Source: Prosthecobacter debontii (GTDB taxonomy: Bacteria > Verrucomicrobiota > Verrucomicrobiia > Verrucomicrobiales > Verrucomicrobiaceae). Taken from it: DNA of 64,000 bases. Both the position numbers and the translations under genes were made by a program. This document shows positions 13,844-57,843 of the stretch, one piece after another. The notes below the pieces were generated by a model. That model was given only the letters and a program-made list of their open reading frames with translations, searched no databases and was not told the DNA's origin. The stretch's first letter is position 1. Each line of letters opens with the position of its first letter. The DNA lies in NCBI GenBank assembly GCA_945860295.1, contig CAMAQH010000001.1, positions 62,001 to 126,000 of the forward strand. The letters are read 5' to 3'.

Positions 13844-13918
13844 TGGCGACCCCTACGAGAATCGAACTCGTATCGCATCCGTGAAAGGGATGTGTCCTAA
13901 CCGTTAGACGAAGGGGTC
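13844..13918 (-). tRNA. tRNA-Glu (anticodon TTC)
   Basis: The minus strand folds as a cloverleaf: acceptor stem GACCCCT/AGGGGTC, anticodon stem CATCC/GGATG around loop CTTTCAC giving anticodon TTC, and a T arm with GTTCGATTC. The discriminator is G at 13847, and the 3' CCA is encoded (13844-13846 on the plus strand read tgg). Confidence 0.96.
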
Positions 13919-14089: not shown

Positions 14090-15868
14090 TCACTGCGCTT
14101 GGAGCAGCGACTTCTTAGCCATCATGGCCATCAGCGCTTCGATCATGCCTGAGTTTCCACCTGCACCGCCAGTGACTAGCACGTCGGGCACGACGCGGAG
14201 GTTCTTTTCCGCGATGATTTGGAAGAGCTGCATGAGCGCATAAGTGTCCTGACCGACGGCTGAAATACCCGCGCTGTGGGCTTCAGCTTTAGCCTGGCCT
14301 GTGGCGCGGATGGCGTCGGCTTCACCATTGGCGCGGAGTCGCGTGCTGGTGGCTTCGCCCTCGCTTTTCTTCACGGCAGAGCTTGCATGGAGTTCGGCGA
14401 TCTGCACGCCTTGCTCGGCACCGACGATCTGGTTTTGGATGTCAGCGAGCGAGGTCTGACGGACGAGTTGCTGGCGCTGTTTTTCTGCCGCTTCCTGCAT
14501 CTCGTAGGTCTTGCGCTGCTCTTCGGCGATCTTGCGATCGGTCTGTGTTTTCATGAGCGACTCGGGCGGTGTGATGTCGCCGATCAGCGTGTCGATGGCT
14601 TCCACGTCATACTCGCGCAAAGCAGCCGCGATGTGTGAAGCAGCCTCATGCTGGCGCTCACTGCGCGCGCTGAGGAAGTCGAGCACGGTGTAGTCTTGAG
14701 CACTGTTGCGGAAGTAGTTGCCGACGATAGGCTGCAAAACGTGGTCGATGAGATTTTGCAATGAACCGGCACGGCTGATCACCTTCGGCGCTTCATTGGC
14801 TCCGATGTGGATAATCTGCGAGACATCGAGATTAAAAGCAAAGCCATCTCGTGAACGCACGGTGATGGAGTTGAGCTTCTCATCAAAGCGATGCGACTCG
14901 GTGCGGCTTGCCCAGTTGAGCACGATGTTCGTCGTGGGCACGAGTTCCACGCGCTGGATGCGCAGATTGATCGGGTGTTTGCCGGGCAGCAAGGGCTTCA
15001 CCCAGACGCCTTTGTGTCCCACTTCGACGAGGTCTCCATGCTTGAAGTCCGGCCCGCTCACATCTTCATGCGCTTTACCAACATAAGAGATGACGACACC
15101 GACATGACCGATGGGGATTTCGATCATTTCCGTCTGCTCGACATCGGCGAACCAAGGATTCAAATTCCACTGACCGCTTAGCAGGATTTGCTCCTGCAAG
15201 CCACGGCTACCACCGGCATTGAGGAAAGCTTGCGCGTCCTGGAAGTTGTTGTGTCCAGGAATCATCGAACCCGCCATTTCACCCTGCTCGATGGACACGC
15301 CGTCCATGGTGGTGACGATGCCGACAAGATCCGCCGCCACATGGAGCAGGCGGAGTTTCTCCGCTGACAAACCATGTTCATGAGCGGTGCGTGATGTGAT
15401 CACCGTAAAGAGCGCTGGATTGATGCGGTAAGTACCCGCAGTGAGCACACCGAGTTGGCGGCCTTTTTCACCGCCATGGGTGAGGAAAGCACGTGCGTCC
15501 TGGAAGTGATCACAGCCGACCATGCGGCCAAGAATTCGCTCAGGAGGAATGGCGTCACCTGCTCTTGCCACGATGAGTGCCAGCTCACCCTGAGGAACGA
15601 CGAGCATGGGCACGCGCTGCACCTGATACTGCCAGATCCAGTAGCCGAAATGCAATCCGGGAGGCAGCGTATCAGCTTGGAAACCGGCCTCGCCATTGAG
15701 GGCGAGCATCTTACCAGGCTTGAGATTTTTGAGAGCGAAACGTTTGATGACGACGCCCACTTCTTGCTCGCCGATACGCACGAGACTGACAAAGCAGAAG
15801 GCGATGATGACGCCGATGATGATGAAGGACCAGGGATGTTGAAGAATAAAAATAAACAGAGGATTCAT
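14090..15868 (-). CDS. SPFH/flotillin-like membrane protein with three N-terminal repeats
   Basis: About 592 residues. A single membrane segment (WSFIIIGVIIAFCFVSLV) lies near 13-30. The SPFH/band 7 core is around 280-420, and an Ala/Glu/Gln-rich coiled coil (KIAEEQRKTYEMQEAAEKQ) around 420-540, as in flotillins that scaffold membrane microdomains. Unusually, the segment before the SPFH core consists of about 65-residue repeats. Units near 91-154 and 180-240 share HFQDARAFLTHGG/NNFQDAQAFLNAGG and end TYRINPALF/QWNLNPWF. A third, partial unit near 251-290 shares the start IGHVGVVISYVGK and the end LLPGKHPINL. The ATG at 15868 directly precedes the membrane segment. Upstream on the same strand lie the structured leader and the c-di-AMP riboswitch. 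Confidence 0.85.
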   Translation of the reverse strand: MNPLFIFILQHPWSFIIIGVIIAFCFVSLVRIGEQEVGVVIKRFALKNLKPGKMLALNGEAGFQADTLPPGLHFGYWIWQYQVQRVPMLVVPQGELALIVARAGDAIPPERILGRMVGCDHFQDARAFLTHGGEKGRQLGVLTAGTYRINPALFTVITSRTAHEHGLSAEKLRLLHVAADLVGIVTTMDGVSIEQGEMAGSMIPGHNNFQDAQAFLNAGGSRGLQEQILLSGQWNLNPWFADVEQTEMIEIPIGHVGVVISYVGKAHEDVSGPDFKHGDLVEVGHKGVWVKPLLPGKHPINLRIQRVELVPTTNIVLNWASRTESHRFDEKLNSITVRSRDGFAFNLDVSQIIHIGANEAPKVISRAGSLQNLIDHVLQPIVGNYFRNSAQDYTVLDFLSARSERQHEAASHIAAALREYDVEAIDTLIGDITPPESLMKTQTDRKIAEEQRKTYEMQEAAEKQRQQLVRQTSLADIQNQIVGAEQGVQIAELHASSAVKKSEGEATSTRLRANGEADAIRATGQAKAEAHSAGISAVGQDTYALMQLFQIIAEKNLRVVPDVLVTGGAGGNSGMIEALMAMMAKKSLLQAQ

Positions 15869-16019
15869 GATGAAATATAGATTTGAGATTTGGTTTGTGG
15901 CGTGATGGAGCGCGGGTTTTCTAACCCGACGCATCTCGATCATGCGCGATTTGAAAAAACTGAAGATGCTATGCTTAGCCTATTGCTCGATGCTCCTACG
16001 GCGGCGTGACCGGGAGATG

Positions 16020-16150
16020 TGCCTTAAAGGCAGCGACAAGGTCGTGATTCATAGATGTGGTTTCACTGTCGGCTTTTTGCCGGACGGTTTCCCGTCCTGC
16101 TCAAGCAGGTCTATCTGGGGAAACCATGGTCCCGATGCACTTGCACCGGG
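16020..16150 (-). other. structured leader RNA between the riboswitch and the SPFH gene
   Basis: On the minus strand this stretch is dense in perfect hairpins: CCCGxTGCA/TGCAxCGGG (16131-16150), CCTGC-TTGA-GCAGG (16096-16109), GACGG-GAAA-CCGTC (16083-16096), CGGC-AAAAA-GCCG (16070-16082) and TGCCTT/AAGGCA (16020-16032). A 7-bp stem TGGTTTC/GAAACCA (16120-16126 with 16058-16064) can enclose three of them as a multi-helix junction. No long open frame with protein-like content fits. It may be the expression platform of the riboswitch or an independent RNA. I do not recognise the family. Confidence 0.5.
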
Positions 16151-16164
16151 CAGAGGATCGCCCT

Positions 16165-16330
16165 CCCAAATTGCCTGCGAGGTTAGCTGTCGGACTAGGT
16201 CTTGGAAGTGACCCCTCGGACGGTTACCCGCCCTCGTGCGCCCCTTCCTGGAGTCTCTTGCGATTCTCCAGGAGATTGGTTCCCCCGCGCCACCACTCAG
16301 GAAGGAGTGATGACTTCGGCTGCGTGACGA
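16165..16330 (-). promoter_or_regulatory. c-di-AMP riboswitch (ydaO/yuaA class)
   Basis: Read on the minus strand, the region carries the hallmark conserved blocks of the ydaO/yuaA aptamer in order. GCGGGGGAACCAATC is followed by a stable hairpin (CTCCTGGAG/CTCCAGGA), then GAGGGCGGGTAACC, and finally GTCCGACAGCTAACCTCGCA near 16199-16180. The last block is nearly identical to the B. subtilis ydaO sequence ATCCGTCAGCTAACCTCGTA. The class binds cyclic di-AMP and usually turns genes for wall remodelling and potassium or osmolyte handling off. Here the first downstream gene on the strand is the SPFH protein about 300 bases on. Boundaries are approximate. Confidence 0.88.
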
Positions 16331-16392
16331 TTAACGAGCGGACAACCAATTTTGTCAAATGAGCCAATTGTAATCGCAGTCATCGAAGACTC

Positions 16393-18534
16393 TCAAAACT
16401 TGATGCCAACACGAACACCAAAGGTCGTTGGGGCGCCGCTTTCACCGATGAAGCCGGATGGGGCTAGTCCAGCGTAATTGAAGGTGAGCGGGATGTAGTC
16501 GGTGCCGAGCGCGTTGTTCACAAAGGCTTCGACATACCACGCTCCACTGCGAGCACCGAGGCGGAAGTTGGCGAGGGTGTAGGCATCTTGAGCGGCGGTG
16601 TTTTGAGCGTCGTAATTGAAGGAGCCGATGGTCTGGATGTCGGCTCGTGCATAGACACTGAGTCGAGCCGTCAGAGGGACATCAATCAGAATACCGAAGC
16701 TGGTGGTATAGTTGGGAGTGAAGGGCAGTTGTTTGCCGCTGAGGGCGACGCCGCTGTCGGTGGCATTGGAGAGGAACTGGGTGTCCTGCCAGCCTGCGCT
16801 GCCGAAGACGCTGACCATGCGGTTGAGCTTGTAGTCGAGATTGAGTTCAAGCCCCTGAGAGGTGGCATCCCCCGCATTGGCGATGAAGAATTGGCCTGCG
16901 CCGAGTGGCTGGTTGAGTTGTAGATCCTTCCAGTCGGTGTAGAAGGCAGCGATGCTAAAGCTTAGTTTGTTAGACAGGGCGAGGCCCTTGAGTCCGACCT
17001 CATAATTCCAGCTCCGCTCTTCTTCATACAAGGCAGGGCCAGTGGCATTGAAGCCGCCCGCTTTGTAGCCACTCGCCATGCTGAAGTAAGTCATGAGATC
17101 AGGTGTGAGGCGGTAACTGATGGCGGCCTGGGGCGTGATCTGGCTGAACTCACGATCTGCTTTCACGATGGCCGCCGGACCCAGCGCTGGAACTGAGGTG
17201 CTGAGGATGTCGGCATCTTTACTTTCGTAGTCCAGGCGGAGTCCAGCGGTGATGTCCAAACGATCCCAAAGGGTAAGCGTGCCCTGCACATAGCTGCCAA
17301 TGCCCATGTCGGTTAGCTCGGCTTTGCCAATCGTGCGGAGTATGGCTGGAATGGGACTCAGCGGCGGGTTCAAGATATTGGAGGCGTCCTGCTCATATTG
17401 GGCTTGAAAAAGGAACATGCCTGCCTGCCAACTGAGCTTCACATCATCACTCAGCGTCACCGGTTCACCTGTCGGATTGGCAAAGCGAAACTCCTGAGTC
17501 CAAGTGCTCATCTGTTCGCGATTTGAGCGCGTGGCGAGAGGGAAGGGGAGGTAATCGAGGTCTGTGCTGTCCGCTGTTTCCCAGCCGACATGGCCTGTGG
17601 TGGAAGTGAAATCGAAAGCGTTAGCATGATAAGTAATCTGCAAGGTCGGCATGATCACGTCGCGTGATGAGAAGCCCACAAAATCGCGCGCCGACTGACG
17701 CGGTTGGCGGCGCAAGGCAGCGAGATCATTGAGCGCGTAGTCACCGTCATCCGCCGATTCACCTGCGATGATGAAACGCACTTCGAGATCATCATTGGGC
17801 ACCCACAGAAACTGCGCTTTGCCAAAGTTGGCGCTGCGATTGTCGAGGTCGTTGCCCGTGAGTGTGTTGGTGGTGAATCCATCGCGCTCGCTATGACCAC
17901 CGGCGAAGCTGAAGCCGAGTTGATCTTTGATGAGCGGTGCCGTGACACTGCCACGGAAGTCATAGAGGTTGTAGCTGCCAAAGGTCGTCTGAAACTCGCC
18001 ACCGAAACTCGTGAGTGAAGGGCGGCGGCTGGTGATGTTGATCAGACCGCCGACGGTGTTTCGTCCATACAGCGCTCCGAGTGGGCCGCGCACGAAGTCG
18101 ATCTGCTCGACATCGAGTAGCTCCAAGCTGGAGGAGTTAGCACTGAATTGTGGCACGCCGTCGATGTAAGTCGTGACGCCCGGATTCATTGGCGAAGCGC
18201 CGATGCCGCGAAAGCGTGGGTTGCTGAGCTTGCGCGCGCTGAACTCAGTAAACATCGTATTCGGCGCATGAATCGCCGCATCCTTCACAAAGCGCACCAT
18301 GGCAGAGTCGAGGAAGTTGTGATCACTCACAGTGGCACTGAGTGGCAGACTGAGCAGATCCTGATGCAGCTTTGGAGCCGAGATGATGATTGGCTCGATT
18401 TCAGGCACCTCAGGCACCGCTTTCGCCACCGGCAGCGGGACGGCAGTGGGTGGCTTGTTGGGCAGGTCAGCGGCCAGGGCATTGCCAATCAAGGATGTGA
18501 AAAGAAATGGAAGCAGTAAACGCAGGCAGGTCAT
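16393..18534 (-). CDS. TonB-dependent outer-membrane receptor
   Basis: About 713 residues. A signal peptide (MTCLRLLLPFLFTSLIGNALA) is followed by a proline-rich stretch and a TonB-box-like EPIIISAPK. Next come the plug domain (FRGIGASPMNPGVTTYIDGV, then VDFVRGPLGALYGRNTVGG-like sequence) and a 22-strand barrel ending in the terminal aromatic VGIKF. It takes up large or chelated ligands at the cost of proton-motive force. The ligand is unknown and no siderophore or vitamin genes adjoin it. The ATG at 18534 directly precedes the signal peptide. The gene is divergent from the dehydrogenase-cytochrome gene, with a roughly 150-base intergenic region. Confidence 0.92.
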   Translation of the reverse strand: MTCLRLLLPFLFTSLIGNALAADLPNKPPTAVPLPVAKAVPEVPEIEPIIISAPKLHQDLLSLPLSATVSDHNFLDSAMVRFVKDAAIHAPNTMFTEFSARKLSNPRFRGIGASPMNPGVTTYIDGVPQFSANSSSLELLDVEQIDFVRGPLGALYGRNTVGGLINITSRRPSLTSFGGEFQTTFGSYNLYDFRGSVTAPLIKDQLGFSFAGGHSERDGFTTNTLTGNDLDNRSANFGKAQFLWVPNDDLEVRFIIAGESADDGDYALNDLAALRRQPRQSARDFVGFSSRDVIMPTLQITYHANAFDFTSTTGHVGWETADSTDLDYLPFPLATRSNREQMSTWTQEFRFANPTGEPVTLSDDVKLSWQAGMFLFQAQYEQDASNILNPPLSPIPAILRTIGKAELTDMGIGSYVQGTLTLWDRLDITAGLRLDYESKDADILSTSVPALGPAAIVKADREFSQITPQAAISYRLTPDLMTYFSMASGYKAGGFNATGPALYEEERSWNYEVGLKGLALSNKLSFSIAAFYTDWKDLQLNQPLGAGQFFIANAGDATSQGLELNLDYKLNRMVSVFGSAGWQDTQFLSNATDSGVALSGKQLPFTPNYTTSFGILIDVPLTARLSVYARADIQTIGSFNYDAQNTAAQDAYTLANFRLGARSGAWYVEAFVNNALGTDYIPLTFNYAGLAPSGFIGESGAPTTFGVRVGIKF

Positions 18535-18541
18535 GTTGTAA

Positions 18542-18623
18542 CTGATCAGGGAACGCCGCGCGGAAGCTGGCAACCGCTTTGTTCAAAGTGGAGTGCGGCC
18601 TTCGCGTCTTCGTCCACTGATCA
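18542..18623 (-). other. nested inverted repeats in the TonB-receptor leader
   Basis: Within the 5' leader of the receptor gene, TGATCA (18543-18548) can pair with TGATCA (18618-18623), and inside it AGTGGA (18587-18592) pairs with TCCACT (18613-18618). A GCGG/CCGC helix lies between. The sequence does not match a riboswitch class I know (it is not cobalamin or SAM-I). It may equally contain a palindromic operator serving both divergent genes. Confidence 0.3.
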
Positions 18624-35862: not shown

Positions 35863-35902
35863 GGTTGACGGTTGTTAACAGTGGTTGACGGTTGTTGACA
35901 GT
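35863..35902. repeat. 20-bp tandem direct repeat flanking the four-helix-bundle gene
   Basis: Two head-to-tail 20-base units, GGTTGACGGTTGTTAACAGT (35863-35882) and the same with one change (35883-35902), followed by a partial third. It lies between the MFS start and the four-helix-bundle stop codon. Confidence 0.9.
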
Positions 35903-35907
35903 TGTTT

Positions 35908-36285
35908 TCAGAGTTCCTGCGCTCGGCGCAGTTGGGAGTCTCGGAGATTGTGGATGCGCACGGCCAAATCAAAGGCTTGATCCAAAAGCGCGTCGGTATC
36001 TTTAGCCGTGGTAAATTGGAGGTCGGTGGCGATGATCAGATCCGAAGCAGTTTCCATCAGAGAACCGTGAGCTTGGCTGGAGTAGTGAGCCTGATCCTTG
36101 AGGGTAGCTCTCCCGCAGCCTTCAGCCAAATTGTTCGCCACCGAAACGGCGGCCCGAGTGAGCTGGCCTGTCAGGCCAAATCGCTCGTCGCGTGGGAAAG
36201 TGCATGAGCACTGGTAAACACCCATCACGAGCTTTCTGGCATCTTGCCAGAGCTCAAGCTTCTCGAATGGAAATGGTTTCCTCAT
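35908..36285 (-). CDS. four-helix-bundle protein (S23/IVP-like family)
   Basis: 125 residues with the family pattern: FEKLELWQDARKLVMGVYQ near the start, FPRDERFGLTGQLTRAAVSV followed by NLAEGCGR, and AHGSLMETASDLIIATDL. Such proteins (first seen encoded in 23S rRNA intervening sequences, and related to the Avd factor of diversity-generating retroelements) form pentameric helical bundles that bind nucleic acid. Here there is no rRNA or reverse transcriptase. The gene stands alone between 20-bp repeats on both sides, as if carried by a small mobile unit. Confidence 0.85.
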   Translation of the reverse strand: MRKPFPFEKLELWQDARKLVMGVYQCSCTFPRDERFGLTGQLTRAAVSVANNLAEGCGRATLKDQAHYSSQAHGSLMETASDLIIATDLQFTTAKDTDALLDQAFDLAVRIHNLRDSQLRRAQEL

Positions 36286-36289
36286 GGGA

Positions 36290-36406
36290 GTTGACGTTGG
36301 TTTACAGTTGTTGACGATGGTTGACGGTTGTCTGTATCAGCGGCGTAGCCGCATCGGTTTGGCAGCCACTGTAAACAACAGTCAACCACCGTAAACCACC
36401 GTCAAC
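36290..36406. repeat. GTTGACGGTTG-type repeats in direct and inverted orientation
   Basis: 36290-36330 repeats the left block's sequence theme (GTTGACG, TTTACAG, GTTGACGGTTG) in the same orientation. 36369-36406 carries it inverted (GTCAACCACCGTAAACCACC). The two arms can form a long imperfect hairpin whose tip contains GCGGC-GTA-GCCGC. Confidence 0.8.
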
Positions 36407-55968: not shown

Positions 55969-57843
55969 TTAGCAGCTCGTTTTACTCGGCAGATCGACGA
56001 GCATTTGGGCATTACTCGGGTAGCGTTCCATGAGTTGCAGGACGCGCTGGATGGCGTCGATGGGCTTGTGGCCGGCTAGACCGCGACGCAGCATGTGGAT
56101 CTTGTCGAGTTGAAAGGACTGCAGGAGCAGTTCTTCACGGCGTGTGCCCGATTTAAAGATGTTCACGGCGGGGTAATAGAACTGCTCGGCGATCTTGCGA
56201 TCGAGCACGAGTTCCAGATTGCCGGTGCCTTTGAACTCCTGGAAAATGAGATCATCCATTCGGCTGCCGGTTTCGACCAGCGCCGTGGCGAGAACGGTGA
56301 GGCTGCCTGCTCCACGAGTATTACGAGCAGCAGCAAAAAGTCGGCGAGGGATCTCCATAGCACCCACCCCCATACCGCCGCTCATGGTGGCTCCACCTTG
56401 CTTGGCGTTATTGAAGGCACGGGCGAGGCGGGTGATGGAATCCATCAGAATAAAGACGTGCTCACCGCATTCGACGAGGCGCTTAGCGCGCTCGACAGCA
56501 AAGGCGGCGATGCGTGTGTGGCTGCGGATGTCCTGATCGTTCGAACTGGCGTAGATTTCAGCCTGTGGGAGGATACGCTTGAACTCGGTGACTTCTTCGG
56601 GGCGCTCGTCGACCAGCAGGATCATGAGATGCATGGTCGGGTGGTTTTCCACGACGGCTTCGGCAATGTGCTGAAGCAACGTGGTCTTACCTGCACGAGG
56701 CGGGGCGACGATGAGTCCACGCTGACCACGGCCGACGGGAGTGAACATGTCGATCACGCGTGTGGTGAAGCGGTCTTTGCGTGTTTCGAGCTGGATCTTT
56801 TTATTGGGATTGATGGCTTTCAGCTCTTCAAAGAGTGGCATGTCACGCATGGCCTCTGGGGCTCGGCCATTCACTTCAGCGATGCTGGTGACCTGTGGCC
56901 CACGCGGACCTTTCTGGGCGATGCCCTTCATGTACATGCCTTCACGCAGACCGTATTGTCGGATGAAGTCTCCGGAGACAAAGGCGTCATTCGGATGTTG
57001 CACATACATGCGCTCGCGCTGGCGTAGGAAGCCATAGCCTTTGGGGGTCATTTCGAGAACACCATCGGCAGGCTCAGGTGGTCCGAGCGGTGCTTCAGGC
57101 AGGCGGGGACGATCATCCTCGTTGTTGCTATAATGGTTATTCCGCTGCTGTGAATTCTGCGAATGCTGGGAGCCGCCGCGTGAAGAACCACGTTCTTCGT
57201 TGTTGCCGCCTTGGCCCTCTGATGGTGGTGGGCCTTTGCCTTCCTGAGCAAGTCGTCGTGCGATCTTTTCCTGACGGAAGCGTTCACGGCGCTCTTTCCA
57301 ACGCTCAAATTTGGTTTTACGGCGTTCCTGCGAAGCGCCTTCACCCTGTGGATTGCCATCGCCTCTGGGAGCCTGATAATTGGGCTGCGGCTGTGCTGGC
57401 GCTGGTGCAGGTTCGGAGGCCACGACTGACTCGATGACTGGCTCGGGGGTCGCGATCACGGCTGGGACTGCGGCGATGATCACAGGAGGAGCGACTGGTT
57501 CAGAGGCTGGCGCAGGTACGTGCGTCTCAGCTTTCCTTGTCTGCATTTGCACGAGGATCGCGGCAGCTTTTTTTCGGACGGCAGATGTGCGAGTGGGCTT
57601 CGTGACGGGAGCTTCCTCAATGACGATAGGCGCGGCAGCTTTTTTAGCAGCGGGCTTTTTTGCGGCAGCTTTTTTGGCTGTTGCTTTGACGGCGATGGGT
57701 ACAGCGATGACTACGGCCTTCTTGGTGGCAGTTTTTTTAGCTGGAGCTTTTTTGGCGGCAGCTTTCTTGGCCACCACTTTTTTGGCGGCAGTTTTCTTTT
57801 TGGGCTTTGCCGGTTGGTCGTCTAAAGGGAGTTTGTCGCTCAT
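55969..57843 (-). CDS. rho: transcription termination factor Rho with a long basic N-terminal extension
   Basis: 624 residues, about 200 more than E. coli Rho. Residues 258-624 are the canonical core: RNA-binding cold-shock-like GVLEMTPKGYGFLRQRERMY, Walker A APPRAGKTTLL near 380, and LLVDERPEEVTEFK with the R-loop/Q-loop segments after it. Residues 12-70 are lysine/alanine-rich repeats (KKAAAKKAPAKKTATKKA) like histone H1 tails, then a Pro/Ala/Val linker and an Arg/Gln/Asn/Gly-rich part (RRKTKFERWKERRERFRQ) to about 250. Long N-terminal inserts in Rho are known in other phyla and may aid RNA binding or condensation. YebC lies upstream. Confidence 0.93.
   Translation of the reverse strand: MSDKLPLDDQPAKPKKKTAAKKVVAKKAAAKKAPAKKTATKKAVVIAVPIAVKATAKKAAAKKPAAKKAAAPIVIEEAPVTKPTRTSAVRKKAAAILVQMQTRKAETHVPAPASEPVAPPVIIAAVPAVIATPEPVIESVVASEPAPAPAQPQPNYQAPRGDGNPQGEGASQERRKTKFERWKERRERFRQEKIARRLAQEGKGPPPSEGQGGNNEERGSSRGGSQHSQNSQQRNNHYSNNEDDRPRLPEAPLGPPEPADGVLEMTPKGYGFLRQRERMYVQHPNDAFVSGDFIRQYGLREGMYMKGIAQKGPRGPQVTSIAEVNGRAPEAMRDMPLFEELKAINPNKKIQLETRKDRFTTRVIDMFTPVGRGQRGLIVAPPRAGKTTLLQHIAEAVVENHPTMHLMILLVDERPEEVTEFKRILPQAEIYASSNDQDIRSHTRIAAFAVERAKRLVECGEHVFILMDSITRLARAFNNAKQGGATMSGGMGVGAMEIPRRLFAAARNTRGAGSLTVLATALVETGSRMDDLIFQEFKGTGNLELVLDRKIAEQFYYPAVNIFKSGTRREELLLQSFQLDKIHMLRRGLAGHKPIDAIQRVLQLMERYPSNAQMLVDLPSKTSC

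Follow-up and report, generated by a model that had tools for sequence, protein, structure and literature searches.

In the 64,000-nucleotide stretch of Prosthecobacter debontii DNA analysed here (the window), a c-di-AMP riboswitch of the ydaO/yuaA class stands on the minus strand in front of a gene for an SPFH/Band_7 protein, and the same arrangement recurs in other Verrucomicrobiota, where the SPFH gene shares its regulon with K+ transporters. The sequence comparisons reported below show that the association of riboswitch and SPFH gene is genuine, that it is widespread within a single phylum and that it is linked to genes for potassium transport. As to its mode of action, we think it probable, taking all parts of the reading jointly, that the riboswitch has its own promoter, that its transcript extends into the SPFH gene, that this gene is a regular member of a c-di-AMP/potassium regulon and that control is exerted by an OFF switch which masks a start codon.

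The riboswitch and the genes downstream of it

The initial annotation had recognized a ydaO/yuaA riboswitch on the minus strand by its sequence blocks, and had proposed a search with the Infernal/Rfam ydaO-yuaA covariance model. This search bears it out: the match to RF00379 covers model positions 1-134 of 134 and reaches 49.5 bits (E = 1.7e-8 for the whole 64-kb window), against a curated gathering cut-off of 38 bits, and the quoted blocks are confirmed in the alignment, where the conserved GCCGAA, GCGGGGGAACCAAU and CCGACAGCUAACCUCGCAGGC are all found. A chance match or an artefact of the model is excluded, because the match is full length, lies above the cut-off and recurs before orthologous genes. 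By its sequence, then, the element would be a genuine and canonical c-di-AMP riboswitch; it gives the sole RF00379 match in the 4.68-Mb genome (an assembly of 75 contigs, 95% complete). Since the genome also holds one diadenylate cyclase (DAC) domain (on G000:C7) and one 7TM-HD (PgpH-type) protein (PF07698, 60.7 bits, on G000:C13), the c-di-AMP signal should exist in the host, which, judged from these homologies, should both make and degrade it. Next to the DAC frame, on the same strand, is a frame that we named by eye as GlmM-like (phosphoglucosamine mutase); the genome has one Kup gene and no match to TrkH.

The SPFH gene starts at the ATG at 15868, on the same strand as the riboswitch and 288 nt from the aptamer. 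Its product matches Band_7 (PF01145) with an E-value of 4.3e-29, which passes the Pfam cut-off. The name flotillin, given to it at the outset, does not hold in the strict sense: at E ≤ 0.001 Pfam gives Band_7 only, NCBIfam gives no match, and the nearest solved relative, which is the sole match of a PDB profile search, is QmcA, with a weak score (2.1e-5). By the models tested, the protein would be classed as SPFH/Band_7 and not as a flotillin. Its predicted structure, of low confidence (mean pLDDT 51.7), suggests an N-terminal helix and long C-terminal helices.

The gene had also been described as the only one downstream on its strand. This stands as far as long genes are concerned, the SPFH gene being the sole one found on the minus strand between the riboswitch and a tRNA at 13918, and fails for short ones, as a reading frame of 18 codons intervenes (Table 1). 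It is the ATG of this frame, and not that of the SPFH gene, that comes first after the aptamer; the SPFH gene begins 127 nt past the stop of the short frame without a clear Shine-Dalgarno sequence. Other members of the genus have, between riboswitch and SPFH gene, a small frame that is either Zn-ribbon-like (Cys pairs, by eye) or variable, and often also a bPH_5 membrane protein (PF10882, E = 2.8e-12 for L019). A small Zn-ribbon-like frame occupies the same place in three loci of a different family (L142, L144 and L129), the Pfam match for that of L144 being below the curated cut-off. PADLOC gave no match for the SPFH, bPH_5 and small-frame proteins submitted. In the window the middle genes of the relatives are missing, and the same start codon opens just 18 codons; a comparison with L162 and L163, which are close relatives, shows that the aptamer in its 3′ portion and the switch strand described below have remained nearly identical, the hairpins after the switch strand being less alike. 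SPFH appears to come first after the riboswitch in 12 class loci outside the genus, where its predicted start is 104-152 nt past the aptamer.

Elsewhere in the window, two repeat regions were seen: short tandem repeats whose unit resembles GGCAGCTTTTTTAGC at 57632-57798, Ala/Lys-rich by eye on the minus strand, and clustered 10/20-bp repeats of the GTTGACAGTT type, in both orientations, at 35863-36406.

Table 1. Positions of the elements of the riboswitch-SPFH locus in the window
Feature	Position	Strand	Basis
TTGACA, -35-like element	16353..16358	(-)	conserved columns in alignment A1
TTAATC, -10-like element, 18 nt after TTGACA	16329..16334	(-)	sequence and alignment A1
c-di-AMP (ydaO/yuaA) riboswitch aptamer, RF00379	16157..16331	(-)	cmscan
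GGGGGAACC, conserved aptamer strand able to pair with the switch strand	16278..16286	(-)	duplex and minimum-energy fold
GGUUUCCCC, switch strand of the putative expression platform	16117..16125	(-)	position conserved in leaders
GAAACCA, start-proximal predicted partner of the switch strand	16058..16064	(-)	predicted duplex
18-codon reading frame, in place of the small gene of relatives	15996..16052	(-)	translation; comparison with L162, L163 and own-genus loci
SPFH/Band_7 protein, 592 aa	14090..15868	(-)	Pfam PF01145, ORF list, orthologues

Conservation of the association and the potassium regulon

Among 56 genomes, including that of the window, RF00379 was found in 12 and the SPFH protein in 11, all of them within the 12, and in these 11 genomes the riboswitch and the gene lie together. 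In 55 of the 56 genomes, then, either both occur or neither does; the exception is G002, in which a bPH_5 gene follows the riboswitch and a search of the genome found no SPFH gene. On a larger scale, a scan of a genome database with the SPFH alignment A2 gave 570 loci. Of the best 80, 37 have RF00379 upstream on the same strand, and these are titled Verrucomicrobiota (34), 'bacterium' (L177 and L196) or Bacteroidetes (L199), the assignment to Verrucomicrobiota being checked for Methylacidimicrobium, Phragmitibacter and Brevifollis and made by name for the rest. Control of such a protein had been thought unusual for this riboswitch class; within Verrucomicrobiota it is not. RF00379 is absent at the other 43 of these best 80 loci, which by their titles come from cyanobacteria (33), Chloroflexi/Anaerolineae (8), Proteobacteria (one) and Bacteroidota (one); two of them, L202 and L211, have less than 250 nt of upstream DNA and say little, and none appeared when ten of the 43 were rescanned under more permissive settings. 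Outside Verrucomicrobiota, ATP synthase beta- and epsilon-like genes, recognized by eye, occur at 19 loci each among the matches listed, and at L205, L206, L208 and L218, for example, they lie upstream of the SPFH orthologue without a riboswitch. By eye, no K+ gene was seen in the neighbour clusters present in at least three loci outside Verrucomicrobiota.

In a sample of 384 genomes of the class, SPFH profile matches occur in 49. Above 1000 bits, 15 of the 16 matches adjoin a riboswitch match (one of the 15 at 37.9 bits, i.e. just under the cut-off), and at one of these 16 closest matches, G272:C49, there is no RF00379 within about 1.3 kb upstream. Four SPFH paralogues at about 650-670 bits have no adjoining riboswitch. 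In a distant tier of 11 matches, at 263-281 bits, a riboswitch is present at five (G037, G072, G159, G243 and G271) and does not adjoin the other six.

RF00379 itself was found in 85 of the 384 genomes. Of the 99 class matches listed we examined 97; the two left out were G220:C130, which lies at a contig end, and G391:C202, which scores below the cut-off. Downstream genes were assigned to types by phmmer, each type being represented by one protein checked in Pfam. In a few loci, e.g. L095 and L110, the assigned gene is second in line after the riboswitch, and contig ends truncate L161 and L108. A recognized type of gene lies downstream of the riboswitch in 93 of the 97 loci: the SPFH type of the window in 20, a second Band_7 type in 6, and K+ transporters and related permeases in 67, these last being divided between Kup (24), KimA-like proteins (22), a Usp-domain protein (15), KdpA (4) and TrkH (2). 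The four riboswitches without a recognized target among the types tested are L149, L153, L155 and L160; L149 and L153 belong to genus g18, of which three other loci (L151, L154 and L156) have an SPFH gene at the riboswitch. The KimA-like representative matches the solved KimA structure 6s3k at 8.4e-60. Twelve genomes of the class have two or more matches, and in 9 of them a riboswitch of a K+ transporter or related permease is paired with one of an SPFH or second Band_7 gene. The link can be closer still: a KimA-like gene follows the SPFH gene on the same strand, behind one riboswitch, at L173:4359-6428, L187:4430-6199 and L203:2940-4928, i.e. in at least three of the 37 riboswitch loci (among the best 80 of 570), the gene caller having displaced the SPFH frame in six. 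No such gene was found among the class SPFH loci within the DNA extracted.

The SPFH gene thus shares a regulon with K+ transporters in Verrucomicrobiota, which suggests that the SPFH scaffold belongs to a potassium and osmotic-stress programme. Two other gene types of this regulon deserve mention. A second, distant Band_7 protein comes right after the riboswitch in L072, L113, L128, L133, L134 and L141 (the Pfam check being of L128 only), and SPFH proteins may, judged from these sequences, have been recruited twice to c-di-AMP riboswitches. The Usp-type protein, of about 600 aa, is found at L095, L096, L100, L103, L106, L107, L108, L110, L116, L121, L125, L135, L137, L145 and L148. Its representative, L137, has a C-terminal Usp domain, and neither a Pfam transporter nor a solved structure was matched; from its genomic place alone we infer a role in K+ transport, and it is possibly a K+ permease of a type not yet described.

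Leader transcription, a proposed switch and alternative explanations

Upstream of the aptamer there is a conserved promoter-like site. TTGAC sits 27 nt 5′ of the aptamer in the window and is found up to 60 nt upstream of it in 31 of 38 SPFH-type leaders (median distance 31 nt); 200 mononucleotide shuffles gave 2.6 leaders on average and never more than 6. The arrangement TTGACA-18-TTAATC would put the transcript start at the 5′ edge of the aptamer. It was not listed by a generic promoter scan, which gave a different site at 16396-16367 (one found, 0.5 expected). A TonB-receptor gene, at 16393-18573 on the same strand, ends at 16393, and the element could have been the 3′ end of its transcript; this is less likely because the promoter-like site, conserved in most leaders, lies between the two. 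A scan of 15800-16600 for intrinsic terminators found no terminator-like site between the riboswitch and the SPFH gene.

The evidence for a switch comes from predicted pairings. In 37 of the 38 SPFH-type leaders a strand of the type GGUCUCCCC follows the aptamer at a distance of 27-34 nt (in L181 it is the second match to the pattern). In the window this strand is GGUUUCCCC, and its predicted duplex with GGGGGAACC of the aptamer has an energy of -19.1 kcal/mol (z = -3.67, with 0 of 100 shuffles as good); the unconstrained minimum-energy fold of the leader contains the same pairing. Over the 38 leaders, the anti-aptamer duplex has a mean z of -1.23 and is in the top 5 of 100 shuffles for 11 of them. 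The switch strand is also predicted to pair with GAAACCA, at -8.1 kcal/mol versus a mean of -4.9 with the switch strands of other loci. Outside the genus, many relatives have the Shine-Dalgarno sequence GGAGA in the place of GAAACCA, and in leaders such as L170, L174 and L177 this GGAGA, just ahead of the start, faces UCUCC in the switch strand. A local hairpin copy in the window, GGGAAACC, about 62 nt after the aptamer, is predicted to be a better partner of the switch strand (-14.0 kcal/mol).

When own switch strands were compared with swapped ones over the whole downstream region, no effect was seen (own strands better in 19 of 37 leaders). Confined to the start region, a segment chosen after the whole-region result was known, and with leader rows that are related to each other, the test favoured the own strand over the swapped mean in 31 of the 45 leaders (Wilcoxon p 0.004; as good a result in 23 of 5000 permutations). 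The 45 are what remained of 54 leaders after dropping four identical ones (L163, L019, L111 and L120) and five in which the pattern used finds no switch strand (L014, L087, L151, L154 and L156, all of the distant SPFH tier). The start codon was here the first ATG beyond a fixed distance; with six start codons reassigned by eye (L018, L080, L180, L182, L188 and L189) and L181 corrected, the count became 32 of 45 (20 of 5000 permutations), and after thinning to 32 dissimilar rows it was 23 of 32 (again 20 of 5000). We take this as evidence of moderate weight for a translational OFF switch. In the KimA-like loci L068-L071, the start codon comes almost directly after the aptamer, with a GAGAGG-like sequence inside the aptamer 3′ end, which represents a different platform, likely of the same sign as in the SPFH leaders.

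The mechanism that we favour would then be as follows. The riboswitch would be transcribed from its own promoter and the transcript would run on into the SPFH gene. At low c-di-AMP, as in K+ shortage, the aptamer would be open, with GGGGGAACC paired to GGUUUCCCC, and the start site free; at high c-di-AMP the aptamer would close and release GGUUUCCCC, which would pair just before the start codon, in many relatives with the Shine-Dalgarno GGAGA, and so block translation. The second messenger would turn the operon off, and the SPFH scaffold would be made when K+ uptake is needed. The weakest step is how control reaches the SPFH gene in the window, and here we are uncertain: since the controlled start codon opens merely 18 codons, translational coupling or polarity would be needed.

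This same need, together with the distance between aptamer and SPFH gene, speaks for a riboswitch that does not mask a start but acts on transcription, through termination (Rho-dependent or factor-aided) inside the long leader; translation of a leader frame, namely the one of 18 codons or, in relatives, the small gene, would then decide the access of Rho. We consider this possible and somewhat doubtful, because the SPFH start is so close to the aptamer in the 12 class loci outside the genus, because GGAGA facing UCUCC in L170, L174 and L177 fits direct translational control, and because no intrinsic terminator-like site was seen, by a scan that looks for intrinsic terminators and not for Rho sites. 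The small and bPH_5 genes invite another explanation, namely that the riboswitch once controlled these genes, now lost, and is a leftover with little effect on SPFH. The order of genes in the own genus, where a small frame, often together with a bPH_5 gene, separates the riboswitch from SPFH, agrees with this, as does G002, which keeps riboswitch and bPH_5 gene without a detected SPFH gene. We find it improbable nonetheless: despite the loss of the small gene, the switch strand and the 3′ portion of the aptamer are still nearly identical to those of L162 and L163, other families have SPFH as the first long gene after the riboswitch, and the two come and go together in all but one of the 56 genomes. 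Finally, c-di-AMP could turn SPFH on. The sign cannot be read from the sequence with certainty, as the leader folds into several alternatives, yet the pairing of the switch strand with the aptamer core predicts a free start site without ligand, sister riboswitches precede K+ importers, and the kdp example tested in Bacillus thuringiensis is an OFF switch, according to parts of the report (PMC6488665); we therefore hold an ON switch to be very improbable.

Known systems and meaning

The element of the window resembles other members of the RF00379 class in its full length, its conserved blocks and its position 5′ of a gene on the same strand, and its counterparts in related genomes precede Kup, KdpA, TrkH and KimA-like genes. 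It differs from the known cases in its target, an SPFH/Band_7 protein. K+ transporters are already described as targets of c-di-AMP riboswitches, with Verrucomicrobia among the phyla, in the available portion of one paper, where c-di-AMP is also seen to block kdp expression in B. thuringiensis through a riboswitch whose platform is a terminator (PMC6488665); unlike this terminator, the platform here looks translational. With KimA and Kup under c-di-AMP riboswitches, the locus has in common the aptamer family, the genomes and, in three loci, direct proximity, whereas SPFH proteins are not transporters. A second parallel is pspA-ydjGHI of Bacillus subtilis, where, following an excerpt of the report, YdjI, an SPFH protein, responds to membrane stress together with two small partner proteins (PMC8581546). 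In both cases an SPFH protein goes with two small partners under stress control, the partners being here, in relatives of the window, the Zn-ribbon-like frame and the bPH_5 membrane protein. The control differs, as that of pspA-ydjGHI is by sigma-W (same excerpt, PMC8581546) and that of our locus would be by a second-messenger riboswitch, and inspection of the listed ORFs around the locus, rather than a dedicated search, showed no PspA-like gene.

What is new would thus be the target gene rather than the class of RNA. No paper that links a c-di-AMP riboswitch to SPFH or stomatin was found in the literature searched, which did not include the gene lists of Block 2010 and Nelson 2013, where Band 7 proteins could be mentioned. 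The words Verrucomicrobi, Nostoc and potassium are absent, by a word search, from the accessible part of a 2009 survey of prokaryotic SPFH subfamilies (PMC2636767).

If the reading is correct, the c-di-AMP regulon of a phylum would be widened from ion import to the organisation of the membrane. For one bacterial SPFH protein, the riboswitch would name the controlling signal, c-di-AMP and hence potassium and turgor, turning a 'membrane scaffold' of vague role into a testable hypothesis, and the riboswitch-free orthologues of cyanobacteria and Chloroflexi would allow the same protein family to be compared with and without this control. At this point we can put forward only tentatively that c-di-AMP governs membrane organisation along with ion transport, that in Verrucomicrobiota the SPFH scaffold is central to the programme of K+ uptake and turgor and is made only when c-di-AMP falls, and that it may assemble or protect the K+ importers (KimA, Kup) whose riboswitches, genomes and, in some species, operon it shares.
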